Source: Liolophura sinensis (taxonomy: Eukaryota; Mollusca; Polyplacophora; Chitonida; Chitonidae). Taken from it: a stretch of DNA of 64,000 nucleotides. Shown here in pieces: positions 10,019-60,700 of this stretch (position 1 is its first letter; each line of letters begins with the position of its first letter). Made by a program: the position numbers and the translations under genes. The stretch covers positions 9,746,017 to 9,810,016 of the forward strand of contig NC_088307.1 in the NCBI RefSeq assembly GCF_032854445.1. Direction: 5' to 3'. Under the pieces are notes generated by a model. It was not told where the DNA came from, searched no databases, and was given only the letters and a program-made list of their open reading frames with translations.

Positions 10019-10616
10019 ACAAAGGTTTGTCTGGCAGAGTATAGATGAGGTAGTTGTAGAATGGGATCAGTTATGTATTTGCAATTAGCCTCTGTCAGAT
10101 CGTCGTTGTTGTTGCTGACGATACCAAGGTATTGTTACGACCCAAACTGTCTGTATTATAAAGAGATGGCTTGTTCGAAATACACGACAGTTTTAGCCGC
10201 ACCAAAACGAGCAGATTTTATTTTTTCACCAATTTATTAGGTTTAACAAGAACGGATAACAAGACTTATACAGCTACTAAAGTACTTAAGTTTTACAAGA
10301 AAGGATAGCAGTATCTATACAAATACTAAAGTCCTTACAGTGTACAACGGTGTCAAGTCCAAACGTACGCATATACTCCACAATGCTTAAAAATGCACAG
10401 AGGGTAATATTCACAAGAGGGGAGAAGTCCACAGTATTAACTGAGTGTATGACGAAATATACACAAAATTCCACAGACAGGGTCCGTGTACTAATAAGCA
10501 CTGTGTACACAAGAGCCAAATTAAATATACAAGTTCAGACTGAACAAGTGCTCGGTGGAGGTATCACAAAGCCAGAGGCTATAAAGACACTAATATTCAG
10601 CATAAAAGGCCTACTA
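10019..10616. repeat. Left copy of gap-flanking ~600 bp duplication
   Basis: Nearly identical to 10817-11410, with scattered substitutions and small indels (for example tttgtctggcagagt versus tttatctggcggagt). It runs exactly up to the N gap. See the finding on a probable unmerged contig overlap. Confidence 0.85.
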
Positions 10617-10816
10617 NNNNNNNNNNNNNNNNNNNNNNNNNNNNNNNNNNNNNNNNNNNNNNNNNNNNNNNNNNNNNNNNNNNNNNNNNNNNNNNNNNNN
10701 NNNNNNNNNNNNNNNNNNNNNNNNNNNNNNNNNNNNNNNNNNNNNNNNNNNNNNNNNNNNNNNNNNNNNNNNNNNNNNNNNNNNNNNNNNNNNNNNNNNN
10801 NNNNNNNNNNNNNNNN
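10617..10816. other. Assembly gap (200 N)
   Basis: A run of exactly 200 N, a conventional scaffold gap size, so the true distance is unknown. Confidence 1.
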
Positions 10817-11410
10817 AGGTTTATCTGGCGGAGTATAGATGAGGTTGTAGAATGGGATCAGTTATATATTTGCAATTAGCCTCTGTCAGATCGTCGTTGT
10901 TGTTGCTGACGATACCAAGGTATTGTTACGACCCAAACTGTCTGTATTATAAAGAGATGGCTTGTTCGAAATACACGACAGTTTAGCCGCACAAGAAAAG
11001 TAACCAAAGCCAGCAGATTTTATTTTTCAACAATTTATTAGGTTTAACAAGAACGGATAACAAGACTTATACAACTACTAAAGTACTTAAGTTTAACAAG
11101 AAAGGATAGCAGTATCTATACAAATTTTAAAGTACTTACATGTACAACGGTGTCAAGTCCAAACGCACGCATATACTCCACAATGCTTAAAAATGCACAG
11201 AGGCAATATTCACAAGGGGAAAGTCCACGGTATAACTGAGTGTATGACGAAATATACACAAAATTCCACAGACAGGGTCCGTGTACTAATAAGCACTGTG
11301 TACACAAGAGCACAAATTAAATATACAAGTTCAGACTGAACAAGTGATCGGTGGAGATATCACAAGCCAGAGGCTATAAAGACACTAAAATTCAGCATAA
11401 AAGGCTACTA
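10817..11410. repeat. Right copy of gap-flanking ~600 bp duplication
   Basis: Begins exactly at the gap edge and repeats 10021-10616, then continues into unique sequence containing the promoter-like region at 11487-11580. Confidence 0.85.
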
Positions 11411-15929: not shown

Positions 15930-18900
15930 ATGAAGTCGTTTCTGCTTTTCCTTCTGGTGACCGTTCTTTGTAGAAGCCAAGCTGAGGTAAGTAGGTTTGT
16001 GAGAAATTTTGAATTATGGGCTATTATCACAAAACAACGTCGTTTTGAACAATAAAGCATTTTTGCACAGAATAAGAACATGTCTGTTAAAGGGAAGTAA
16101 TCTATAAAGCTAATAAATAAATCTTTTGTTGAAAATAGCTGTAAAATTTCTTTCCTCATTTCTGACCATTTGTGTTCTGTTTGGACAGTTTTAACCGTGT
16201 TTGTTTTAATTTGGATGTATTTGAGTTTTACGCCACCCACATAAAGTTCAAATTTTTCTTTGATCACTATCTTGTACACCTTATACGCACATTTCAAAAT
16301 TCGTTGATCAGTATGTTTTACACAACACGCACATTTCAAACTTTTCTTTCAACAGTATTTTACACAACATGCTCATTTCAAACTTTTCTTTCAACAATAT
16401 TTTACACAACAAACTAATTTCAAACTTTTCCGTTAACATTATCTTACACAACACGCGCATTCCAAACTTTTTCTTTTAACATTATCTTGCACTACGTGCA
16501 CATTTCAAACTTTTTCTTTCAACAGTATTTTATGTCATCCATCTATAAAAATTTTCCTGTGACCAATGCCATACACCACACGCTCATTTCAAGTTTTTGT
16601 TTAATCAGTGTTTCACACCAGACGCGTATTTCAAACATTTCTTTGAACAGTATCATACACAGCACGCTCATTTCAAACTCTTGTTTTAATATTATCTTGT
16701 ACAACATTCTCATTTCAAACTTTTCCTGTAACATTGTCTTACACAACCCGTGCATTTCAAACTTTTCTTTCAACAGTATCAGATTTCTTACACAATACAT
16801 GCATTTCAAAATTCTGAACAAGGACTGTTTCCCGCCACAATGCAGGCCACCGTGGTGTATTAAGTGAAACATACTATCCAAAAAAAGAAACGCATAGGTG
16901 TTTTGTTTTAGTTTAAAATGAAATAAATACATTTTGTCTTCATTTCATGAGCAAAATGTGTTTTAATATTGTTAATAGTCACAGTTAGCACACATTTTAG
17001 TCCTCAAAACATTTCTTGGTTGAAAATGTTGAGTTTGGAGGCCGTTTTTGGAAGAAGTAAAAAATACAGCACCACACTGCATCACGTGCAGTCTTACACG
17101 CCGAACTTACGCATGGAAAGCATGCAGTGTGTGACTATAAAACCGCAACTTCGGGCCGGAAATCGGCGTCTTTCAAGTGGTGTTTTCAAGCTGATTCAAC
17201 ATGCCGTCTTGACACTGTCACAAGAAATATTGCCATTGGAAGACTGCAAGCTGGAGAGTCCCAATCGTCCATTTCTAGGCGTCTACACGTCAGCCAGAGC
17301 GGCTTGCTGCCCGCTACAACAATACTGGGACAACAAATGACCGCCGGCGTTCAGGTCGACCACGTGTCACTACAGCAGCCCAAGATCGCTACATAAAGGT
17401 CCTCCATTTGCGTGATCGTTGTGCTACAGCTGAAAGCACAGCAGCCAGCATACCGGGAGTGAGGAGGATATCTGGTCAGACAGTGCGGAACAGGCTGAGG
17501 GAACATGGACTGAGAGCCAGGAGGCCCTATGTTGGGATCGTGCTGCGTCCTCACCATCGCGCCAATCGCCTCCGATGGTGTAACAACGTGACTGCATGGA
17601 ATCTACGCAACTGGCGACGCATTTGGTTCAGTGATGAGTCCAGATTCCTATTGCAGAGACGTGATGGTAGAAACCGGGTTTACAGACGTGCTCACGAACG
17701 TTATGCCCCTAACTGCGTACGCCAAGTGGACAGATTTGGTGGAGGGAGTGTGATGATGTGGGCAGCAATATCGTATACTGGTCGTACAAATCTTGTCCAC
17801 GTTCAGGGAAATCTTACGGCCGTACGCTACCGAGACACCATCCTGCAGTCACACCTCTTACCTGTCATTGACGTTCAGCGGGAGTTGTTCCAGCAGGACA
17901 ACGCCAGACCGCACACGGCACGTGTCACAAGGGACTTCCTCGCCGAAAACAATGTAAATGTGCTACCCTGGCCGTCCCGTTCCCCGGATCTTAACCCAAT
18001 TGAGCATCTGTCGGATGAACTTGATCGACGTCTACGCCAACGTCAACCTCAACCCCAAACGCTTCAAGAGCAAGTTGCATGTTTGCAGGAGGAGTGGCAG
18101 AACATTCCCCAGGCCTCTATCCAGCGTCTCATCCAGTCCATGACAAGGCGTGTCAGAACTGTTATTCGTGCCCGTGGTGGTCACAACAGATACTGACATT
18201 CCACTCAAGTGGGAGACTCATTGTGAGTGTCTTACCTCAAGTTGATGGCCTTGTTGTCTAGATATGGACCCTTCCTTAATCTGTGTAAAAAAATATTTGC
18301 AGAATAGCAATTCTTATTTAGTTATGCATAATTGAAAAGACTGCATCACCTCCGCAAAAAACCGGGCTATGCGTTTCTTTTTTTGGATAGTATATTCTTG
18401 AGTCCCGCGTAAAACCAACAATCAAATAAATAAATGGTAATCTGATCCCCACTGTCGTGTTTTGATTACAGGCAGCTGCTCTCAGCAGGGACGTCCGCCA
18501 AACGGGCACAGGTTAGTAACCCGGCCTTCCATCATACAGACTGTTTGTTGGGCCTTGGAGACAGTAAGCGGTCGTACGACTGTTTGTGCTCTCCGACGGT
18601 ATTTATTTAGTTATTTGATTGGTTTATTACGCCACATTCAAGAATATTTCACTTATACGTCGGCGGCCAACATTATGATGGGAGGAAACCGGGCAGAACC
18701 CGGGGAAACCCACGACCATCCGCTGGTTGCCAGAAGACCTCCCCACTTGCATCTGGAGAGGAAGCCAGCATGAGCTGGACTTGAACTCACAGCTACAGCA
18801 TTGGTGAGGGCTCCTAGGACGTTACGCTGCGCTAGTGCGCTAACCGACTGAGCCACGGAGACCCCCCTGTCATGGGGGGTCGAACATGGCGCATAACAAC

Positions 18901-21900
18901 AACAATCATGTTCATAAACAGCAATCACTATACTTTTGGGGGCTTTTTGCTAAAGAAGTCAATGTGTAATCGAAAATCCCGTTGATGTTGAAGTTGAAGT
19001 GGACCTTACTCAAATGCGGGTATTTCAAAGATACTTCTTTACCCATTCTTTCTTAATCAGAAAAAAAAGATAGGCTATTTACAACCAGTCAACCAGTCAC
19101 TGCGTTAAGACCTTCATGTTGAACGCCAAACGAGGAAGTTACAACTTCCTCTTTTAGAGTCTTAGGTGTGACTCGACCCAGGATACATCCTGGATGTATT
19201 TACCAACTGTGCTATCCGGGCTAGTGTAACAAGAATTGAAGCTTATTCTTTATTGATTATATTGATTATTAATATTCCCTTTTTCTAATTTATAATATAT
19301 AACTCCACGTAAATTATAAAACTTTGCTGCCACATTTTCTTCAGATGTGGAAGACCTCATCGATGTTTACCATCGTGCAAAATCGCTGAACGAAGATGCT
19401 CAAAACAAAGAATCACAAGCCGTGGATGACCTGATAAAATATATACAAACCAGTGTCTCGTCATACCATGGTAGCCCGTACTACTACAGCAGTCCGTACT
19501 ATTATAGCAGCCCATACTACTACAGCAGCCAGTACTACTACAGCAGCCGGTACTACTACAACAGCCCATACTACTACAGCAGCTCATATTACCATAGCGA
19601 CCGGCACTATTACAGCAGCTCGTACTACTACAGCAGCCCGCACTACTACAGCAGCTCATATTACCATAGCGACCGGCACTATTACAGCAGCTCGTACTAC
19701 TACAGCAGCCCGCACTACTACAGCAGCTCATATTACCATAGCGACCGGTACTATTACAGCAGCCCGTACTACTACACCAGCCCGCACTACTACAGCAGCC
19801 CATATTACTACAGCAGTCCGTACTACTACAGCAGTCCATACTACTGCAGAAGTCCCCAGTACTACAGCAGTCCATATTACTACAGCAGTCCGTATTACTA
19901 TAGCAGCCAGTATTACTACAGCAGCAGGTACTACTACAACAGCCCGTACTATTACAGCAGCCCGTACTACGACAGAAGTCCATACTACTACAGCAGCCAG
20001 TACTACGCTAGCAGTCCGTATTACTACAGCAGCAGGTACTACTACAGCAGCCCGTATTACTATAGCAGCCCGTATTACTACAGCAGCCCTAACTATTACA
20101 GCAACAGGTACTACTACAGCAGCAGGTACTATTACAGCAGCCCATACTACTACAGCAGCTCGTACTACTACAGCAGCCCTAACTACTACAGCAACAGGTA
20201 CTACTACAGCAGCAGGTACTATTACAGCAGCCCGTACTACTACAGCAGCTCGTACTATTACAACAGCCCGTATTACTACAGCAGCCCGTACTATTACAGC
20301 AGCAGGTACTACTATAGCAGCCCGTATTACAGCAGCAGTCCGTATTACAGCAGCAGTCCGTACTACTACAGTAGTCCATACTACTACAGCAGCCAGTACT
20401 ACTATAGCAGCCCGTATTACTACAGCACCTCATATTACCATAGCGACCGGTACTATTACAGCAGCCCGTACTATTACAGCAGCCCATACTACTACAGCAG
20501 CCGGTACTACTATAGCAGTCCGTATTACTACAGCAGTCTGTACTATTACAGCAGCCCTAACTACTACAGCAACAGGTACTACCACAGCAGCCCATATTAC
20601 TACAGCAGCAGGTACTACTACAGCAGTTCGTATTACTACAGCAGCCCGTACTATTACAGCAGCCCTAACTACTACAGCAGCAGGTACTACTACAGCAACT
20701 CCTACTATTACAACAGCCCGTATTACTACAGCAGCCCGTATTATTACAGCAGCAGGTACTACTACAGCAGCCCGTATTACTACAGCAGCCCGTACTATTA
20801 CAGCAGCCCATACTACTACAGCAGCCCGTATTACTACAGCAGCAGGTACTACTACAGCAACTCATATTACTATAGCAGCCCGTACTACTACAGCAACCCG
20901 TCCTACTACAGCAGTCCATACTACTACAGCAGCCAGTACTACTATAGCAGCCCGTATTACTACAGCAGCCCGTACTACTACAGCAGTTCGTATTACTACA
21001 GCAGCCCGTACTATTACAGCAGCCCTAACTACTACAGCAGCCCGTACTATTACAGCAGCCCTAACTACTACAGCAGCAGGTACTACTACAGCAGTCCGTA
21101 CTATTACAGCAGCCCGTATTACTACAGCAGCCCGTATTATTACAGCAGCAGGTACTACTACAGCAGTCCGTACTATTACAGCAGCCCTAACTACTACAGC
21201 AGCAGGTACTACTACAGCAGTCCGTACTATTACAGCAGCCCGTATTACTACAGCAGCCCGTATTATTACAGCAGCAGGTACTACTACAGCAGTTCATATT
21301 ACTACAGCAGCCCGTACTATTACAGCAGCCCGTACTACTACAGCAGCTCGTACTATTACAACAGCCCGTATTACTACAGCAGCCCGTATTATTACAGCAG
21401 CAGGTACTACTACAGCAGCCCGTATTACTACAACAGCCCATACTATTACAGCAGCCCATACTACTACAGCAGCCCGTATTACTACAGCAGCAGGTACTAC
21501 TACAGCAACTCATATTACTATAGCAGCCAGCACTACTATAGCAGCCCGTACTACGACAGAAGTCCATACTACTACAGCAGCCAGTACTACTATAGCAGCC
21601 CGTATTACTACAGCAGCCCGTACTACTACAGCAGTTCGTATTACTACAGCAGCCCGTACTATTACAGCAGCCCTAACTACTACAGCAGCAGGTACTACTA
21701 CAGCAGTCCGTACTATTACAGCAGCCCATACCACAACAGCAGCCCGTATTATTACAGCAGCCCGCACTACTACAGCAGCCCGTATTACTACAGCAGTCCG
21801 TACTACTACAGCAGTCAGTATTACTACAGCAGCCCGTACTACTACAGCAGCCCTAACTACTACAGCAGCTCGTACTACTACAGCAGCCCGTATTACTACA

Positions 21901-22865
21901 GCAGCCCGTATTACTACAGCAGCCCGTACTACTACAGCAGTTCGTATTACTACAGCAGCCCGTACTATTACAGCAGCCCTAACTACTACAGCAGCAGGTA
22001 CTACTACAGCAGTCCGTACTATTACAGCAGCCCATACTACAACAGCAGCCCGTATTATTACAGCAGTCCGTACTATTACAGCAGCCCATACTACAACAGC
22101 AGCCCGTATTATTACAGCAGCAGATACTACTACAGCAGCCCGTATTACTACAGCAGTCCGTACTACTACAGCAGTCAGTATTACTACAGCAGCCCGTACT
22201 ACTACAGCAGCCCTAACTACTACAGCAGCCCTAACTACTACAGCAGCAAGTACTACTACAGCAGCCCGTATTACTACAGCAGCCCGTATTACTACAGCAG
22301 CAGGTACTACTACAGCAGTTCGTATTACTACAGCAGCCCGTACTATTACAGCAGCCCTAACTACTACAGCAGCAGGTACTACTACAGCAGCCCGTATTAC
22401 TACAGCAGCCCGTATTACTACAGCAGCAGGTACTACTACAGCAGTTCGTATTACTACAGCAGCCCGTACTATTACAGCAGCCCTAACTACTACAGCAGTC
22501 CGTACTACTACAGCAGCCCTAACTACTACAGCAGCAGGTACTACTACAGCAGCCCGTATTACTACAGCAGCACATATTACTACAGCAGCAGGTACTACTA
22601 CAGCAGTTCGTATTACTACAGCAGCCCGTACTATTACAGCAGCCCTAACTACTACAGCAGCACGTATTATTACAGCAGCAGATACTACTACAGCAGCCCG
22701 TATTACTACAGCAGCCCGTACTACTACAGCAGTTCGTATTACTACAGCAGCCCGTACTACTACAGCAGCCCATACTACTACAGCAGCCCGTACTATTACA
22801 GCAGCCCGTACTACTACACCAGCGCGGATTACTACAACAGCCCGTTCGACTACAGCAGCTCTTAA
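15930..22865 (+). CDS. Secreted tyrosine-rich hexapeptide-repeat protein (three exons, ~1,205 aa)
   Basis: Exon 1 (15930-15986) encodes a classic signal peptide, MKSFLLFLLVTVLCRSQAE, and ends at GTAAGT. Exon 2 (18472-18511, 40 nt, acceptor ttgattacag, donor GTTAGT) adds AAALSRDVRQTGT plus one base. Exon 3 (19345-22865, acceptor ttttcttcag) continues in the matching phase with a short acidic, helix-like segment (VEDLIDVYHRAKSLNEDAQ) and then about 188 hexapeptides X-Y-Y-Y-S-S, where X is mostly P, also R, S or Q, and the first Y is sometimes N or H. It ends near SPFDYSSS and TAA. The 3,618 coding bases are divisible by three. I recognise no named family. The composition recalls proteins crosslinked through DOPA or dityrosine (byssal, cement, periostracal or eggshell proteins; plant extensins also have YYYSS-like runs). 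A structural extracellular role is inference. ATTAAA motifs lie at 22903 and 22917. Confidence 0.75.
16258..16822. repeat. 42-bp minisatellite in intron 1 of the tyrosine-rich gene
   Basis: About 13 imperfect units of 42 bp containing catttcaaacttttctttc followed by acagtattttacacaacac. The unit length is a multiple of three, so both strands show spurious open frames with 14-residue repeats. Confidence 0.9.
16824..16873 (+). repeat. SINE-1 fragment, left part, split by Tc1 element
   Basis: tttcccgccacaatgcaggc to aagtgaaacata is the SINE-1 core. It resumes at 18391 with tatattcttgagtcccgcgt, so one SINE was interrupted. Confidence 0.85.
16874..18390 (+). mobile_element. Tc1-type DNA transposon, 1.5 kb, with intact terminal inverted repeats
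   Basis: A perfect 24-bp inverted repeat starts CTATCCAAAAAAAG at 16874-16897 and ends at 18367-18390. A TA dinucleotide flanks each side (16872-16873 and 18391-18392), the target duplication of Tc1/mariner elements. It carries one transposase gene and lies inside a SINE-1 copy within intron 1 of the tyrosine-rich gene. Confidence 0.95.
17127..18196 (+). pseudogene. Tc1 transposase, DD34E, with one frameshift
   Basis: Cut-and-paste transposase. The N-terminal helix-turn-helix (AIGRLQAGESQSSISRRLHV) is read in the 17127 frame. From about 17290 the frame changes to that of the rest of the protein: GRPRV hook-like motif, second DNA-binding region (ISGQTVRNRLREHGL), catalytic core and stop at 18196. 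The catalytic triad is D in WFSDESRF, D in FQQDNARPHTA and E in SPDLNPIEH, with 34 residues between the last two, which fits Tc1 DD34E. The break falls right after SQS of the first helix-turn-helix, where a small deletion seems to have removed a few codons and shifted the frame. The catalytic core is otherwise open, so the copy is probably recent but dead. Confidence 0.92.
18391..18434 (+). repeat. SINE-1 fragment, right part
   Basis: tatattcttgagtcccgcgt then aaaccaacaatcaaataaataaa; the tail of the SINE interrupted by the Tc1 element. It lies about 38 bases before the 18472 splice acceptor. Confidence 0.85.
18599..18868 (-). repeat. SINE-1, near full length, in intron 2 of the tyrosine-rich gene
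   Basis: On the plus strand it runs from the tttatttagttatttgattg tail to the tRNA head (gcgctaaccgactgagccac). Minus-strand reading gives boxes A and B. Confidence 0.92.
19085..19222 (-). repeat. SINE-2 fragment with tRNA-like end
   Basis: Contains acgaggaagttacaacttcc, taggtgtgactcgacc and accaactgtgctatccgggc. Reading the minus strand, the last is a tRNA-like box A (gatagcacagttggta). It is a second tRNA-derived SINE family, unrelated in body to SINE-1. Confidence 0.85.
19473..22862 (+). repeat. 18-bp coding tandem array (~188 units)
   Basis: Unit close to ccgtactactacagcagc. T/C differences between units fall mainly at the third base of tyrosine codons (TAC/TAT), so they are silent in the Y-Y-Y-S-S frame but change T to I in the next frame. 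The array is also open in a second plus frame (T/A/R-rich) and over long minus-strand stretches (V/A/R-rich). I treat those as shadows. Confidence 0.95.
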
Positions 22866-23202
22866 CACTACAACAGTCCGTTCGACTACAGCGGCCCGCA
22901 CCATTAAAGATCCAACATTAAAAATACGACATGGGGTCTTCGTGACGTTTTACTTGAGAAGTTAGCAAAGCAGCAAATAACATACTATTCAATATTTCTC
23001 TGATTTGAACATTTATGCAATTTATTAATTTTGTTCAGTTTGTTATGTGGTTTTATCGATTTAATTAAGAATTTTCACCTAGAGGAGGGCTGTCAGACTT
23101 TATTCCTCAAGAAGGAAGTACCCAGGGTAAATAAATCGAATAAATGAATACATAAATCAATAAATAAAGAAATAAAAACTTGAGATCTTTGAATTTATTT
23201 AA

Positions 23203-23475
23203 CCCGTACTACTACAGCAGCTCATATTACTATAGCAGCTCGTACTATTACAGCAGCCCTAACTACTACAGCAGCAGGTAGTACTACAGCAGTCCGTACT
23301 ATTACAGCAGCCCGTATTACTACAGCAGCCCGTATTATTACAGCAGCAGGTACTACTACAGCAGTCCGTACTATTACAGCAGCCCGTACTATTACAGCAG
23401 CCCGTACTCTTGCAGCGGACCGTATTACTACAGCAGCAGTACGTATTATTACAGCAGCCATACCATAACCAGTGG
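23203..23475 (+). pseudogene. Detached relic of the tyrosine-rich repeat, broken by an in-frame TAG
   Basis: About 340 bp after the stop of the tyrosine-rich gene, another ~15 units of the same 18-bp repeat appear. The frame starting at 23204 gives PYYYSS units but contains TAG at 23279-23281, where other units have TAC in AGG-TAC-TAC. After it the frame continues through several units into SGAEIW. No splice acceptor was seen in front. It is probably a duplicated and decaying segment; it could be a second exon only if the TAG is a sequencing error. Confidence 0.7.
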
Positions 23476-25804: not shown

Positions 25805-26481
25805 ATGGCTCTGTCTCTCGTGTTGGTAATGTCCGTTAGCCTGATTCCTCTATATCAGATGAAAATGTGCGACAACTTCATCCACAGATTTTGGCAGCGA
25901 CGTTTCGGCCAATCCATAAAAAGTTGTGTCGAACACAAGGAGCTTCCTGACTTCCTTGAGACACTGTCTTAGCGACCTGAAATGTTTATCCGTGTCTTAC
26001 AGTTCCGAGAGACAGGAAGCCCGACTGTTTGACAACTGGAATGAGGACGCAGGTGGCGAGTTTGAGCTGAAAACGAGATGTCCACGGAAACCAAAGCATC
26101 ACCACAGCCGAACTTTAGATCTGTGCTTCTCACTGGATGAGCTCGTCTGACGCTTCCACGTGGTGTCAAGACAATGGCAGGTCTCGTCTGCTGGTTCTCG
26201 ACACTCGCGAGATGTTGGACTTTCTGTTACAGTCAGGCCCAGGAAATCGGGGGTGGTTTAACGTTAATGGTGAGATCTATTACTGGGTCGGTGCGACATA
26301 CAACGGCACTAACTACATGTGGGTAAACGGTGCCGAACTTCTTTCCAATTCAGATTTGTGGCAGCATGGAAGACCGATACACATGATTGACTACACCGCC
26401 ATAGTTTTGAGCCTCGATACCCCCGACGGTATTGCAGACGAATACCGTTTGCAGGTTTACTACTTTTTATGTGAATACTGA
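25805..26481 (+). pseudogene. C-type lectin-like protein, frame-broken
   Basis: Starts with a signal-peptide-like MALSLVLVMSVSLIPLYQ. A Cys-containing region follows (RHCLSDLKCLSVSY), reminiscent of PAN/apple modules, then a C-type lectin-like domain. The parts lie in three frames: 25805 to about 25920, about 25926 to 26143, and 26137 to the stop at 26481. Lectin-domain landmarks are LCFSLDE, then DASTWCQDNG, a leucine-rich stretch with E, YYWVGATYNG, MWVNG and a final FLCEY. The first and last domain cysteines (WC, FLCE) are present; the middle pair expected near DYTAIV and DEYRLQV is absent. There may be introns (a good acceptor gtgtcttacag ends at 26002), but none explains the 26143 shift. 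A decayed lectin gene or uncorrected indels both fit. Confidence 0.6.
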
Positions 26482-34700: not shown

Positions 34701-35665
34701 ACGGAATGACGCCAGAAATGTTCCTAAATGCGAATTATTTAAACCAGTATTCAAATCGTGTACCATGCAAGTTTACAAAGTTGTCAATTTTCAAAATATG
34801 TATTTTAGCTGCGCTTTGATAACAAATTGTTCATATATGCAACGTGACGATCTAATTCAACACCATGAATATACTCCCACCTAGTCCAGTTATGAAGCAG
34901 AGCGCCCTGAGAGTCTGGAGAGTCCGGGTGTATTTATTCACAGAAGAACTGTACTGATTGTAAAAGTCAAAGAGGAATTTTTTGTATTACCTTTTCTTTC
35001 TCCGTAGCCGAAACAATATCCCTGACTTTATGCTCCGGATGTTCAACCACACATCCCAAACAGAGCAGCATCCGACACGTCACACAGTACAGACTCATCG
35101 CCTGATCGTGTTGGTCACATGTTGACTCTGTGCTTAATTGGGAATTGTTCTTTTCTTGATCCTTCATGTTTCCTTGGGAAAGGTGTTCCTCTGATGTAAT
35201 CAGGCGGTGTTGCTTCAGTGAGCCCTTCATCGGATGATAAGCCGAGAGACAGTCATCACAGTAGAGCAAACGGCAGTAACAGCAATACTTGACGGCTTTT
35301 GACTTGTTGTCTTCTTCGCAGACAGCACAATGCGGGATGATGTTGTCTTCAACCTTTGCATCGGATGAGAACCTTTCCACAATTTCTGCAAGCTGAAAGT
35401 TGAGCGGCAAACCAGCCACACCGTCTGTCCCCAAGCTAATAGGTGCTCGACAAACAGGGCAATGTATCACATGACGAACGTCCTCACCCTCCGGGCTGCA
35501 GGTGGTTTGCTCGCCTGTCACACCAGATTTAGACTTCTCAGCGACGGAACGAATACATTCCTTGCAAAAACTATGTTGACATGATAAAACCACAGGTTCT
35601 CGAAACATTTGGACGCAAACTGAACAGGTGAGAACTTCTTCCAGGTTCTGCTTGTTTTCAGACAT
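28636..35665 (-). CDS. TRIM family E3 ligase: RING, two B-boxes, coiled coil, B30.2/SPRY (six exons, 596 aa)
   Basis: Exons on the minus strand: 35665-34991, 33970-33875, 32524-32294, 31991-31969, 31227-31043 and 29216-28636. Sizes are 675, 96, 231, 23, 185 and 581 nt; phases agree and the total is 1,791 nt. The 96/231/23 series is the one seen in vertebrate SPRY-type TRIM genes. Exon 1 has a C3HC4 RING (residues ~14-77, [17 protein letters not shown]), B-box 1 ([11 protein letters not shown]..) and B-box 2 ([15 protein letters not shown]). The middle exons are a heptad-like coiled coil ([10 protein letters not shown]). The last exon is the SPRY domain ([26 protein letters not shown]). TRIM proteins are ubiquitin ligases in innate immunity or protein turnover; the target cannot be told from sequence. 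The ATG at 35665 is chosen because it starts the RING-proximal segment; a longer open frame upstream is likely 5' UTR. A polyadenylation signal lies near 28455. Confidence 0.93.
29470..29880. repeat. 42-bp minisatellite next to the TRIM SPRY acceptor
   Basis: Ten units, mostly 42 bp. On the minus strand each reads like tgcgctacag|aaagagagctgg followed by tgttag|gtgtgt, i.e. an acceptor-like AG, a short exon-like piece and GT. The piece resembles the true SPRY exon start (gttacag|aagcagagctg), so the array may descend from that junction. Confidence 0.9.
30440..31015. repeat. 62-bp minisatellite next to the TRIM donor
   Basis: About nine units containing acatgagcaataggcgtttt then cctcaaggattacgtgatg and gccgatggcaacattcttgtg. 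Spacing between units is 62 bases, with one deleted unit near 30670. More diverged related units extend left to about 30050. Confidence 0.9.
31658..31757. repeat. (AT)n microsatellite
   Basis: About 95 bases of uninterrupted AT in the TRIM intron between the 23-nt and 185-nt exons. Confidence 0.97.
32642..32894 (-). repeat. SINE-1, near full length, in TRIM intron
   Basis: Tail tttatttatttatttgattg at left, tRNA head gcgctaaccgac at right; minus orientation, same sense as the host gene. Confidence 0.93.
33003..33133 (-). repeat. SINE-1, 5'-truncated
   Basis: Tail and core only, from ttatttgattggtgttttac to accatctgcaggttgctgg. Confidence 0.88.
33297..33403 (-). repeat. SINE-2 tail fragment
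   Basis: gagtgagtgcttggggttta to gtgcctccttgttgcaggac. The tRNA-like part is missing. Confidence 0.85.
33404..33874. other. TRIM intron sequence without identified features
   Basis: AT-rich intron 2 sequence; no repeat family seen. Confidence 0.5.
33971..34990. other. TRIM intron 1
   Basis: AT-rich with short tata runs near 34260; no coding or repeat signal recognised. Confidence 0.5.
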
Positions 35666-35734
35666 TACTGCGTTTCCTGGTAAATAAATTGTAAACTGAA
35701 GCGTAAATTTACTAAAAATTGTCCCTGTTCTCAT

Positions 35735-41630: not shown

Positions 41631-41819
41631 TAGCTACGACACACGAGGTATGGGTTCAATCCCAGCATTAGTCAGGCAGGGAATTTGTACATTTTCCTCT
41701 CTCTCAATGTTCGTGAGGCCTTGGTGACAATAAGTGGTTGATGAAGCATGTATGACGGTTTGTCTGGTCTACCTATTGCTGTACGTCATGTACGTGATCA
41801 GTAACCTGGGAAATGTCGG

Positions 41820-42055
41820 TGCAGGTTAGCGCTTGTTACTCACGCCGGTGGAGGTATGCGCTTGTTACTCACGCCGGTGGAGGTATGCGCTTGTCACTCA
41901 CGCTGGTGGAGGTATGCGCTTGTTACTCACGCCGGTGGAGGTATGCGCTTGTCACTCACGCCGGTGCAGGTATGCGCTTGTTACTCACGCCGGTGCAGGT
42001 ATGCGCTTGTCACTCACGCCGGTGCAGGTATGCGCTTGTTACTCACGCCGGTCTC
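41820..42055. repeat. 29-bp minisatellite, eight units
   Basis: Unit close to gttactcacgccggtggagg then tatgcgctt. Because 29 is not a multiple of three, the same peptides recur in all three frames; no coding role is implied. Confidence 0.95.
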
Positions 42056-45350: not shown

Positions 45351-46358
45351 TTAAACACATAACCACGCTAAAACTCTTCTGGGCGGAACGAATTCTCTTC
45401 GCGCGTGCAGAACTTGGAGATTGTCAATCATCATGACGTCGCCGGATTTCCAGTCCATGTCAGACGCACACTCGCACAGCGTTTCATCCAAAATGTCCAT
45501 TACTTCCGGTTTCATGTAAGTCCCATCACTCAGGTAAACAGATTTTTCCGGAACGTTCCGCGAGTCCACGTAAGCCCTGTAGGCGTTGATAATGGCGTTA
45601 TGCCACATTTTGAGGCCATTGTTAGGGTTGATTCTGACACCAGGCATGATGTCGGTGATGGTTTTAACGGAACCGTCCGGCATCCATTCAAACGTCGTGC
45701 CTAACTCTTTGGCTTTGCTCTCCGCCTCTTCACGCGTCTTGCTGAGGTACGTTGACTGCCACCCTCGGCCAATGGCGGACTCGTTGTCATCGCCATCAGG
45801 TAAAACTCGTAGATAGCGAACACCTTTCTCTTCCAAATCTTTCACGAACTCGGGTTCCCTCTCCAGCATTTTGCGGTAGACCAAGTTCGACGGAGCCACA
45901 GACGTTTGACCGCCCTCTTTGGCGGGATATTCACAGAAGAAGAAGATGTTTTTCGGGTATTTGGGGGACTGCGCAATTTCGTGGTGGAAATCTACCAGTT
46001 TGTCCGGAGGAGACTCATTCGTTGTGAACACATCACCCACGACGGAAGTCCGCGGTGCCGCGCCACCTATGTATGGAAAGGGCTGATAATCCAACGCTTT
46101 CACAAACGCATCGAAGTCGATGGCTTTTTTGACGGGGAAATCGCGAAATACGATAACTCCGTACTTCAGCAGGATCTTTTTCAATTTGTCTCTGTTTTCT
46201 TCCAGCCACATGATGGTGCTAGGAAGATCGGTGAATGTTTTCTGATCGGTAGGGCTCAGAATCAAAGGAAATGGTTTTCCATCGTGGATTTTCTGCTGCG
46301 GTTCTGGCAGTTTAACTGTTTCCACCATTCCTCCCAGGGTGTTGATGTCTTCAAGCAT
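45351..46358 (-). CDS. TauD/TfdA-type Fe(II)/2-oxoglutarate dioxygenase (clavaminate synthase-like), 335 aa
   Basis: Hydroxylases of this fold couple oxidation of 2-oxoglutarate to oxidation of a small substrate, using Fe(II). The whole protein lies in one open frame. Visible landmarks: a TauD-type N-terminal region (KKILLKYGVIVFRDFPV), metal ligands in FHHEIAQ (H-x-E-like, as in plant clavaminate synthase-like proteins) with the distal H in LQVLHARREF, and the 2-oxoglutarate-binding arginine in the PPRRVL region. GQTSVAPSN and IGRGWQSTYLS are also typical of that subfamily. The substrate is unknown. The ATG at 46358 lies 13 bases after a good acceptor (gatattttcag), so a 5' UTR intron is likely. 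The coding part has no intron, which is unusual beside the spliced neighbours. A TTTATT (AATAAA on the minus strand) lies near 45215. Confidence 0.93.
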   Translation of the reverse strand: MLEDINTLGGMVETVKLPEPQQKIHDGKPFPLILSPTDQKTFTDLPSTIMWLEENRDKLKKILLKYGVIVFRDFPVKKAIDFDAFVKALDYQPFPYIGGAAPRTSVVGDVFTTNESPPDKLVDFHHEIAQSPKYPKNIFFFCEYPAKEGGQTSVAPSNLVYRKMLEREPEFVKDLEEKGVRYLRVLPDGDDNESAIGRGWQSTYLSKTREEAESKAKELGTTFEWMPDGSVKTITDIMPGVRINPNNGLKMWHNAIINAYRAYVDSRNVPEKSVYLSDGTYMKPEVMDILDETLCECASDMDWKSGDVMMIDNLQVLHARREFVPPRRVLAWLCV

Positions 46359-46429
46359 GGTTCTGTGTTATCTGAAAATATCGACAGGTATACGAGCGCT
46401 ACACAAGCTAGGCGCATCATTGAAGATTT

Positions 46430-54775: not shown

Positions 54776-57700
54776 TTAAACAGGCGTTATACATTCGGTG
54801 CCTCCGACTGACGAAGCACAGCATTTCAATGTCCCCGGACACTGACCATCGTTACGACAATTCCTGTACCCAAATGTTTCTCTGGATGGGATTTCCTTTG
54901 TTTTGAACCAAAATCTGCCATTAGGAACGACATACAGGGGATTCACGGCTGGCTGACTTGGGCAGCTGCCGTCTTTCTGTGTCGTGGGTGGGAACGGTTG
55001 CGATCTCAAACATCGCATTCCGCAACCGTACTCGCAACACTTCATATCAGTACCGCATTCGGAATCCGCCGTACAGTTGACGGTACAGGGCAGCAGAACA
55101 TGAGGTTCAACGTAAGGGCAGTGTCCAGGATTCAACCTCGGCGCGTCGCTGAACGAAGGCGCAGCGCACTGCGAGCTGCATCCCGCTGCGCAGCACTTCT
55201 GGTTGCCTGGACAATTCGAATCGCTGGAGCAGCGACGGATGCATACCGGAGATGTGCTGGTTAATGCAGGACAAGCTCCATCCTTCATCGCTGAGTCCTG
55301 GGCAGGAGCACTGCACTGAACGGCATTCCCTATACGGCAGCACTTTTCGGCACCGGGACAGGCATAGTCAGATATACACTGGATTGTGTCTGGCCGTCCT
55401 CGGGCATCTTGAGATGACGGACAATCGCCCGTTTTTCTTTGCGCCTGAGGGGCGGCTTCAGGAGCCATACATCTCATCGAACACTGACCGAAGGAGCAGC
55501 ATTTCGTATCTCCAGCACAGGAGTAATCAGACGAACATGTCTGCAGGCACATAGTGGAGACATTAGGGTTGACGAACGGACAGAATCCCAGTTTAACGCC
55601 AGGATGGTTCGCATTTGGGTCCACACAGCTCATTCCACAACTTAGTTGACAGCACTTCTTGTTGCCCGAGCAGGATCCATCGGACGTGCACGGTTCGTCG
55701 CATTGAAGGTTAGTGGTGGAGGCAGGGCAATAACCGTCTTTGGATATCGCCGGTGGCATAGCTACGGGGTTGTAGCATTTCCGACTGCAGCCGTTTTGGC
55801 AACACTTCATGATGCCTGGGCAGGAGTCGTCGAGCTGACAGGATTGTTGACAAGAGGAAGACAGAGAGGTAGGGATGAAGGGACAGAAGCCAGCTTTGTC
55901 TTTTGGCGGGGTTTGGTTTGGCAGGACGCATTTGACGGCACATCCGACGCTGCAACACTTTTGATCTCCAGGGCACGAATCGTCCGAAGTGCAATCAACG
56001 CGGCACACAGAGGAAGCGTTCAACGAAAAGCTCGGGCAAAACCCTTCTTTTGTGGACATAGTGCTTGATTCAGGGTTGATACATCTATTGTTGCAGCCAT
56101 CAAAGCAACACTTAAGTGGTTCGGGACAGGCGTGGTCCGAGTTACAGAACTCTCTAGATGACCGACATCGCTCTGCCGGAAGCTGTGGAACATTGGGGCA
56201 AACGCCGGGTCTTGGGATAGGTGGCGTGGATGTAGGGTTAACGCATTTTTGTGAGCAACTACCTTCAAAGCAGCACTTCAGATTACCACTACAACTGACG
56301 TCTGAGTTGCATGTGCGCTCGCAAGCTCCAAACGATTGTGTAGTCGCTGGACAATATCCTTCTTTCACGGTCGAGCTGGTATGGACTGCTTTCAACACAG
56401 GACGACTTACAACCTTGTCTGCAGCATTTCAGCTCGCCTGGGCAAGAAAAGTCGCTGTTACAGTAATGACCGCAGTCCTGTGCGAGGAAATGGTTGTAGC
56501 TTGTGATTCTTGATGGAGAACTGGCTGGACAGAAACAGGCTTTCTTTGAACAGTACGAACAGCTGGAACACACTCTCGTCTACAGCCGTTAAAGCAGCAT
56601 TTCTCATTCTCAACGCAAGCATAGTCAACGGAGCACTTGACACACAGTTCGTTGTTGGACTGTTGATGTCATTGGCTGGACAGGAGCCCGGTCTGGATGC
56701 TTTGGGTACCGTCTTACGTGGGGACAACACATCTCGCGTTACAGCCGTTTCCACAGCACTTGTGTTTCCAGAACAATCGTTGTCAGTATTACAGGATTTG
56801 AAGCACGTGAAACTTCTGATGCTTGATGGCGTTACAGGGCAATAGCCGGCCTTGACTAGGGGGGTTTTGGTTACTGGGTCCTGGCATTTTGTGGAGCAGC
56901 CATATGGGCAGCATATCTGTCCTCCACTGCATGCGTCATCTGACGAACACATCGGCTCACACGAAGTCAAATTGGACGTTGCCGGCATATCGGGGCACTT
57001 GGATGGCTTTGGGCTGCTCGGAAGGTGTTTGCCGATGGGATTAAACACCGCCTACATGTACCATAGTTGCAGCACTTCCTGGTGCCGTCGCAGTCATCGT
57101 CAGATGTACAGGTAGTGGTGTGCAGCGAATAACTCTGAAACTGCTAGGGAAGTTTGGACACGACCCGGGTTTACTTCCAGAAGACTGAGGCGGAGGGTCC
57201 ATGCATATTTTCCGGCAACCATAGTGCGACACACTTTGTTTCCTTGGCAAGAGTCGTCTGACGTACACGCATCTCGGCCGCAGTCTCGACCAACTCCAGA
57301 TACCCTGACGTTCAGACATCGTTTCCCACAACGGAAGAAGTCAGCACTTCATCGAATTTGGACAATCATCGTCCTCTCTGCACTGGTCTCGACATTTGAA
57401 GCTCGACATAGAGACCGCGGGGCATGTACAGGTCGCTCATTTGCAGCTGCGTCGGTTCGTCTTCTTCTGTGGGTCTGGTGAGAGCAACTCTACCGTCCAG
57501 CCTGTGGAGTGTCGATGATAGGATCTTCACATGTAGACACGCAGCCGTCCTGGCAGCACTTCTGGTCCCCAGGACATGTGGTGGTCAAAGCGACAGTCTT
57601 CCCTGCATGTGAAACTCCGCCTTGCTGGTGCGGGACATTTCCCTTTCTTCTCATGAGCGGCGTCAGAGGATCCACGCAGATCTTGTGACAGGCCGAGCGA

Positions 57701-60700
57701 ACAACACTTCTGTTCTCCTGGGCATCGGCTGTCTAAACTGCAGTTTTTCTTGCACGGCTTCGTCCGGGATGGTCATTGGACAATATCCAGGACGCACATT
57801 AGATCGATCGTCGAAAATCGCCAGTGGGGACCGACATGTCCATGCTGCATCCGCTTAAACAGCATTTCTCTATATTAGGACAGTCGTTGTCTACTCTGCA
57901 GCTGACGGTGCATTCATTGTCCCTTGGATGGGGGAGCCCAGTGGGACAGGAGTCAGCTTTTACTTCCGGTTGTGTCGTGTTGATCTGTTCTATGCAGCGC
58001 ATGCTGCAGCCATATTTGCAGCATTTCTCGTTCGTCCCGCACGAAGCGTCGTCGGAACACTCCGGCGTGCAGTCGGACAAGGGGACTTCGGGAAAGTCCG
58101 GACAAAATCCCATCCGGTCAGATTCAACCTTTTCAGACTGTGGGGCCATGCAGGTCTTTTTGCAGCCTTCCATGCAGCACTTTTGGTTGTCTGGACACTG
58201 GTCATCGCTGGCGCAGTCAGAAGTACAGTCATTCTGCATCCTGGGCACGGACACTGCAGGGCATATCCCGGGCCTCAACACGATTTCTGCAAAAACAACA
58301 CACGTGATCATAAGTTATGCTTTGCATAACTATTTTAACGAAATTCTACTAGTTGTCGAATTAGAAGCATTTTAGCCCAAACTGATGGAGCAGAAGAAAC
58401 GAAAACAACCCTTTAAGATAACATCTGTTTTTCACGCACATCATTTCACTGATATTAGCCAACTTTCACGAAAAAACTAATCTGAAATTGAGATGAATAA
58501 GTATCAAAATAGCTGTCACTTTTAATCACTTAAAGGGTAGTCAGACATAGGAACACTGCATCCATAACGCCCTGTCGTCAGTGTATAGGGCATTGTATAT
58601 TCATTAATACTATTTAATTGAAACAATGACCCAGGAACCTTCCGCCAATGCGGTCGCTGTGAATTCAAATCCAGCTCATGCTGACTTCATCTTAGGCCGT
58701 ACATGGGAAGGCTATCCAGCAACCTAAGGATGGTCAAGGGTTTTCCCCGTGCTGTGTACGGTATAATGCGTAATAATCGTATAAGTGAAATATCCTTGGG
58801 TACGGCGTAAAACACAAATCAAATGAATAAAAAAATAATGCTATTTTACACCTATCAAAAGTCTCACGCCTGAAACCATTTTATTAATATTAAATATAGA
58901 ATTACCCACCAACACACTTTTGATATTAAAAAAACGCTAACGCGATGCCCCATACCCATTATAAGGACTTCATGTGGTCTTATGTTACGACCTAGCGTTA
59001 AATGAATGGCACATGATATCATACAGGGGGATGTGAAGATTTCACCGATCCTCTGACAGACATTATGATCGGCTTAGTCGCATAAATGTAGTTAATAAAT
59101 ACAGGCCTATGTAACTTACTCTTACAAACTGGTAATGGCCGACAGGGCAACGAAATACAGCTTTTCCCGACCATAGCACAATACTCCCCCTCATGACATT
59201 GCTTTGTCTGCAGAAAAGAAAACATACAATCGAATGTTATTTTATGTGTAAGATGATCTGTCAAATGGGGTACCTTTTCCTGCGCAATGGTGACTCGCAA
59301 TCCAGCCCATTTAGACACACAGTCGGTTGCTAGGCTGCTGATTTCATTTCCTGGACAGGAGACCGGTATGGATGCCTCTGGGCACCGTCTTGCGTGGAAC
59401 GACTGTCAAGCTGGACTGACCAGTTTTGCTCTCTTGTAATACAGGAATTCAGCTCTAGCAGTTGCACAATAAAGGTTATTACAAAGGCAGGCATCAACAA
59501 CAAACTTCACAGCTTGGACCCGCATGAAATTAACCTGTGAAAGGTTTCCAATGACAATGCGGAACGTTTGAAGCCTAAAACGTTGGTTCTAGCGCTGTGG
59601 TGTTTCGATCTTTCTATATTGCGTCGCATCAGTTTCAGTATTGTTGTACTTGTAAAGCAAAAAGATAGATCACAATTACTGCATTCATAATTTTACTTCC
59701 ATTTCATTGTTTTCCTCTTATTAATTCTAATCATAACTCTAATTTTCAAAAAAGGCTGCAATTTATGGTCAAAGTTTTTTTCGTTGCCTGGTTTACGGGT
59801 TGAAAAAAAAAAGTATTTCTACTTACAGTGCAATCGACAGCAAAATTTAATCCAGCCACTGATCCTCCAAACTGAAAAGAATTCAAAGAAGACATATGAA
59901 GTCATTTTTCCTTTGACTATGGCTTAATACATTCAAGAATCTAATCTGTTAAAATTTAATATAATATTGTGTCTTCTTACTGCAACACAATATAATTTTA
60001 TACACAGCACACTGTCATATGTTTATTACATATAACGTAATAGTGTGGAGTAATAACACACTGTTCTGCCATCACTCAGAGAACGTACACACACACACCT
60101 GCTCTATATATAGACCCTTACAAGTGAATATACAACATTTTTTAAAAACGTTTGTCGTATTTACAAAAAGTTATTTAGTTAACGCACTGTTTAACATTAA
60201 GGATCTTATTATATGAAAACCAGTAATCGCTGTTTTACATCCGGAAATGTCACATGTGTTTCACAAAACCCATCTCCATGAATAATCATTTATTTATTTA
60301 TTTATTTGATTGGTGTTTTACGCCGTACTCACTTATACTTCACTTATACGACGGCGGCCAGCATTATGGTGGGAGGAAACCGGCCAGAGCCTGGGGGAAC
60401 CCACGACCATCCACAGGCTGCTGGCTGACCTTCCCATGTACGGCCGGAGAGCCAGGAAGGCCCCTCCATGAACAATTATGAACAACAGTATTCTTTTGGG
60501 AAGACGTAACAAAGCATATAACGTAGTAGTGCAATTTATTAGACAAGTGACGTCTAATAAATTGCAATTAACATACTTTCAATTTTTTTTTACCTATTTC
60601 TGTTTAAGCCATGGTGCTAGGGGCGTGTACATTGCGACTATTTATGCATTTAAATGAATTCTTATAACAGAACCCTGACTGAGGTAAACTGACATGAGAC

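Follow-up and report, generated by a model that had tools for sequence, protein, structure and literature searches.

Tyrosine-rich proteins that become cross-linked are already a known kind. In the coccidian oocyst wall, in another organism and with another sequence, such proteins are hardened by peroxidase with formation of dityrosine, and the shematrins of pearl oysters are repetitive proteins that contain tyrosine. Plant extensins, in the account of PMC8160292, are secreted and repetitive, with Tyr-X-Tyr alternating with Ser/Pro in amphiphilic blocks; peroxidases turn the tyrosine motif into intramolecular isodityrosine and intermolecular pulcherosine or di-isodityrosine, and the chains align themselves through their amphiphilic character. 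Among molluscs, the Gly/Tyr-rich domains of pearl-oyster KRMP, which also has Lys-rich basic regions, are described as thought to cross-link (PMC3120837, PMC3191542). For chitons, 31 silk-like structural proteins have been reported from the Acanthopleura granulata genome by use of SilkSlider (PMC7850002), whose target class is defined by glycine-rich windows according to PMC4944945. Moreover, the tooth-cusp protein RTMP1 is described as a secreted, serine-rich chain of 539 amino acids with a Gly/Ser-rich repeat and Trp/Phe-rich and His-rich regions (PMC6351634). Here we describe a locus in the chiton Liolophura sinensis (positions 15930-22865, + strand, of a 64,000-nucleotide window, contig NC_088307.1, 9,746,017 to 9,810,016) that is predicted to encode a secreted protein made largely of tyrosine-triplet hexapeptides, in a reading frame that has been kept by selection. 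The assembly was first published as Liolophura japonica, and the name was later corrected (PMC12441733).

The predicted gene consists of three exons. Exon 1 (15930-15986, +) carries the start codon and a predicted signal peptide (MKSFLLFLLVTVLCRSQA), and exon 2 (18472-18511, +; 40 nt, placed by splice signals and phase only) begins a linker and contains RDVR, which we take to be a furin-like motif. Exon 3 (19345-22865, +) runs from the remaining linker through the hexapeptide array (19476-22859, +; 188 tandem 18-bp units, consensus CCGTACTACTACAGCAGC, read as PYYYSS) to the stop codon at 22863-22865. Spliced together they give 1,205 codons plus the stop, so that the in-phase joining of 1,206 codons proposed in the initial annotation was borne out, with good splice sites (GAG/GTAAGT, TTACAG/GC, CAG/GTTAGT and TTCTTCAG/AT, the slash marking the exon border). 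In-phase joining alone is weak evidence for the model, since the frame stays open in 16 of 48 donor/acceptor combinations of nearby sites. The sole methionine of the predicted protein is the initiator; consequently the array, which has no internal methionine, cannot start its frame alone and needs an upstream exon. Four AATAAA polyadenylation-like signals (string matches only) lie at 23130-23176 (+). As a prediction, the gene model is sound in sequence. To judge from the N-terminus, which is unique, the gene also appears to be present once: the first 76 residues, searched against the whole genome (609,464,459 bases in 632 contigs) at E ≤ 10, matched only its own exons 1 and 3, exon 2 being too short for separate detection.

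The predicted protein comprises an 18-residue signal-peptide-like start, a 58-residue linker (EAAALSRDVRQTGTDVEDLIDVYHRAKSLNEDAQNKESQAVDDLIKYIQTSVSSYHGS), 188 hexapeptides and a final serine. The signal peptide and its cleavage site were judged by eye and by hydropathy (hydrophobic core FLLFLLVTVL, mean Kyte-Doolittle value 3.23). Tyrosine accounts for 524 of 1,205 residues (43.5%; 46.1% within the repeat part), which agrees with the earlier estimate of close to half, and occurs largely as YYY triplets, 147 in all, or about one every six residues across some 1,130 residues. Serine makes up 32.1% and proline 9.9% of the chain, with 118 Ser-Pro pairs and no PP. There are two glycines (0.2%), five lysines, 15 histidines and no tryptophan in the whole chain; the predicted mature chain numbers 1,187 residues, of which 19 are Asp or Glu. 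The grand average hydropathy is -1.34. The count of about 188 X-Y-Y-Y-S-S units given at the outset was correct for six-residue units, but their regularity had been overstated: 134 of the 188 are exact X-YYY-SS, and the others vary. Position X is most often P, followed by R, S and Q.

We conclude from the pattern of substitutions that the YYYSS array evolved as protein, its frame being kept by selection. Computed per frame by comparison with the consensus unit, pN/pS came to 0.13 in the YYYSS frame over 188 units (pS 0.426, pN 0.055), and to 0.17 over the 60 distinct DNA sequences found among them. Of the other two forward frames, one gave 1.40 and the second, which contains 33 stops, 0.59; the reverse frames gave 1.33, 0.30 and 1.07 with 7, 362 and 17 stops, respectively, and the one with the ratio of 0.30 is unreadable. 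The forward frame with the ratio of 1.40 reads Ala-Arg-Thr and is open for 1,175 codons; we rejected it as coding on account of that ratio, and it looks like a passenger. Moreover, the 521 TA-starting codons in the three tyrosine columns are TAC (410) or TAT (111) and never TAA or TAG, and the array is free of stops although each tyrosine codon is one base away from two of them. In simulations of random mutation at the observed divergence (three transition rates, 400 runs each), a mean of 25.9, 17.4 and 10.6 stops arose over all units (minimum 13, 6 and 3), and 10.0, 6.9 and 4.2 over distinct units only (minimum 2, 1 and 0); runs with no stop among distinct units occurred only at the most transition-biased setting. 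These figures should be taken as guides and not as probabilities, since variants spread by copying and the units are not independent. As a control, an 18-bp (PYVDNS)n minisatellite on the same contig (29920984-29922684; 95 units, open frame of 658 codons) had a ratio of 0.61 when read in the open frame, against 0.49-1.68 for the remaining five frames, and is probably non-coding, since no single frame is favored. The frame-specific constraint thus disfavors a non-coding satellite at the chiton locus.

The array bears traces of copying. Identical seven-unit blocks recur 7, 17 and 36 units apart. The first 47 units differ from one another by 0.213 on average (pairwise), whereas for the last 47 this mean divergence is 0.158; such a pattern would arise if the later part had been homogenized more recently by unequal exchange. 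The length of the array is credible, we infer, because the assembly was made from 14X HiFi reads with a reported mean length of 8,347 bp (PMC11068029), longer than the 3.4-kb array. Beyond the stop, the frame continues for 13 further codons with repeat-like residues to a second stop (22866-22907, +), and the encoded protein was perhaps a little longer in the past. A detached array copy lies 338 bp downstream (23203-23459, +) and is 86.6-90.9% identical to parts of the main array (8 alignments kept). This copy has one in-frame stop, an extra codon near its end and a pN/pS of 0.11 over 13 units; it is a released, decaying copy that still carries a coding signature.

Searches for relatives are consistent with a secreted-type protein of no described family, and the initial annotation is supported on this point as far as it was tested, by the secreted-type start judged by eye, by Pfam, PDB and protein searches and by the literature. 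Pfam-A returned no family for the first 334 residues and, for the first 76, four weak matches (E 0.087-0.19) that all fell below the curated cut-off; with the first 148 residues as query, PDB gave nothing at E ≤ 1, and Rfam gave nothing at the gathering score. The protein-database search that had been suggested gave no relative: none at E ≤ 0.01 among the 7,998 scored candidates with most shared words, and none at E ≤ 1 in two further searches with 22 and 54 candidates, the animal share of that database not being established. In a local control, phmmer scored shuffled-unit YYYSS proteins highly. When the genome was searched with the first 208 residues (best 150 of 1,875 candidates scored), 154 matches were obtained; among the matches listed, ten lay in the array itself and one was the detached copy, and all others had 13-40% identity and covered query residues 61 onward, which are repeat. 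Eight of these loci were translated, among them the (PYVDNS)n array with no favored frame. In open-access full text, searched with specific terms only, no comparable glycine-poor tyrosine-triplet chain was found described, and among the three open-access papers containing the string YYYSS none was a structural-protein paper by title and abstract. The eLife chiton genome paper does not contain the terms biomineral, silk or tyrosin (PMC12005716).

Set beside the described systems, the chiton protein shares with the extensins a secreted and repetitive chain of amphiphilic blocks and, in its 147 YYY triplets between Ser/Pro blocks, the Tyr-X-Tyr motif with X = Tyr. The Ser-Hyp/Pro(3-5) modules that enter the extensin definition in PMC8160292 are absent, however, as the chain contains no PP. 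The protein is not an extensin, and the likeness between plant and animal is one of convergence. It resembles KRMP and shematrin as a secreted mollusc protein with a repetitive tyrosine-containing domain, but its 5 lysines and 2 glycines contrast with the Lys-rich and Gly/Tyr-rich regions described for KRMP. With the silk-like proteins it has in common the low-complexity repeats, and it would share the signal peptide if its start, judged by eye and hydropathy, is one, but it lacks the glycine-rich windows. RTMP1 is likewise a secreted, repetitive, serine-rich chiton protein, whereas the present chain has tyrosine triplets, no tryptophan, 2 glycines and 15 histidines.

We consider it probable, though by no means secure, that the locus encodes a structural protein of about 150 kDa that is secreted, a block polymer whose chains associate with one another and, by cross-linking through tyrosine, become an insoluble material outside the cell. 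According to this hypothesis the signal peptide would be removed, perhaps together with the segment ending in RDVR, and hydrophobic YYY blocks would alternate with hydrophilic SSP, SSR or SSS blocks, allowing chains to associate via their tyrosine blocks. A peroxidase (dityrosine, isodityrosine) and/or a tyrosinase (DOPA-quinone) could then couple neighboring tyrosines into a tough, insoluble layer; peroxidasins are reported as present in chiton tooth cusps (PMC6351634). The array would lengthen or shorten through unequal exchange of its 18-bp units, with selection preserving the peptide. The likeliest site would be the cuticle of girdle and valves, with the radula second, and the choice of the cuticle is a guess. 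Adhesive, shell and periostracum had all been offered earlier as destinations. To our knowledge chitons make no byssus, and a cuticle or periostracum-like layer thus fits best among those options; the protein might still be an adhesive. A more specific version is conceivable but rather improbable, namely a convergent extensin design in an animal, in which each of the 147 YYY triplets could hold an internal isodityrosine and pulcherosine or di-isodityrosine links would join the chains into a glycine-free cuticle or radula scaffold, perhaps with iron binding through DOPA.

Several points weigh against a cross-linked structural protein. The conservation was measured between units within one array, with no relative found in other species, and the non-coding-looking detached copy, at 0.11, indicates that a coding source can pass on a low ratio to its copies. 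The crosslinkable structural role inferred in the initial annotation is the candidate role that the composition favors most. Instead of being cross-linked, the chain may be soluble, or it may carry sugars or phosphate. A secretion that is soluble or forms a loose gel (mucus, foot adhesive or egg coat), its tyrosines serving stacking and adhesion and not a covalent network, would suit the secreted-type start, the low-complexity chain and the hydropathy of -1.34; nothing specific speaks against it, and we hold it to be quite unlikely. We judge it unlikely, but worth serious attention, that the protein belongs to the matrix of radula teeth, valves or sclerites and, being phosphorylated or carrying DOPA, serves chiefly to bind mineral or iron and not to cross-link. 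The serine content and the 118 Ser-Pro pairs would be in keeping with such a role, as would the predicted phosphoserines of serine-rich RTMP1 and the phosphoserine reported from chiton tooth matrix (both PMC6351634), and chiton hemolymph is described as exceptionally iron-rich (PMC7850002). However, the mature chain holds few acidic residues (19 Asp+Glu), and the tyrosine triplets go beyond what phosphorylation needs.

That the locus is no working gene at all, but a minisatellite or else an array that ceased to code only recently, seems to us very unlikely. In favor of this view, the DNA consists of tandem 18-bp units among which blocks have been copied recently, a decaying copy adjoins the array, the stop at 22863-22865 precedes repeat-like codons, and a Tc1/mariner-type transposon sits inside intron 1 (16868-18396, +; 30-nt inverted repeats, 97% complementary; transposase domains DDE_3 and HTH_Tnp_Tc3_2; a 305-codon transposase frame). 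Against these observations stand the ratio of 0.13 in the YYYSS frame, 188 units without a stop, the clean splice signals and the secreted-type start, and the control minisatellite, as given above, favors no single frame.

The surroundings in the window were also surveyed. A C-type lectin-like exon (26119-26478, +) was rejected as part of the same gene, as it lies 3.25 kb past the stop and is weak (23.2 bits, cut-off 22.6). On the reverse strand lie a RING finger and B-box frame of 255 codons, TRIM-like (34967-35734), a single-frame 338-codon TauD/TfdA-family dioxygenase (45351-46367; E 2e-31) and a WAP (four-disulfide core) gene (54776-58314) with 10 stretches in a 550-codon frame and more in upstream frames. 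None of these neighbors, WAP-domain, TauD-family, RING/B-box or lectin-like, gave a hint of a pathway common with the array gene. The window further contains a 29-bp tandem array at 41817-42052 (about 8 copies, 94% matches) and a run of N at about 10600-10830.

If expressed, the protein would be a candidate component of the chiton cuticle or radula, and its simple repeat, taken from nature, would lend itself to work on how tyrosine drives assembly and cross-linking. Because it is nearly devoid of glycine, screens for silk-like proteins that rely on glycine, such as SilkSlider, would miss it. Should the proposed reading be true, there would be a class of structural proteins in molluscs, or in animals, that glycine-based searches have left out.

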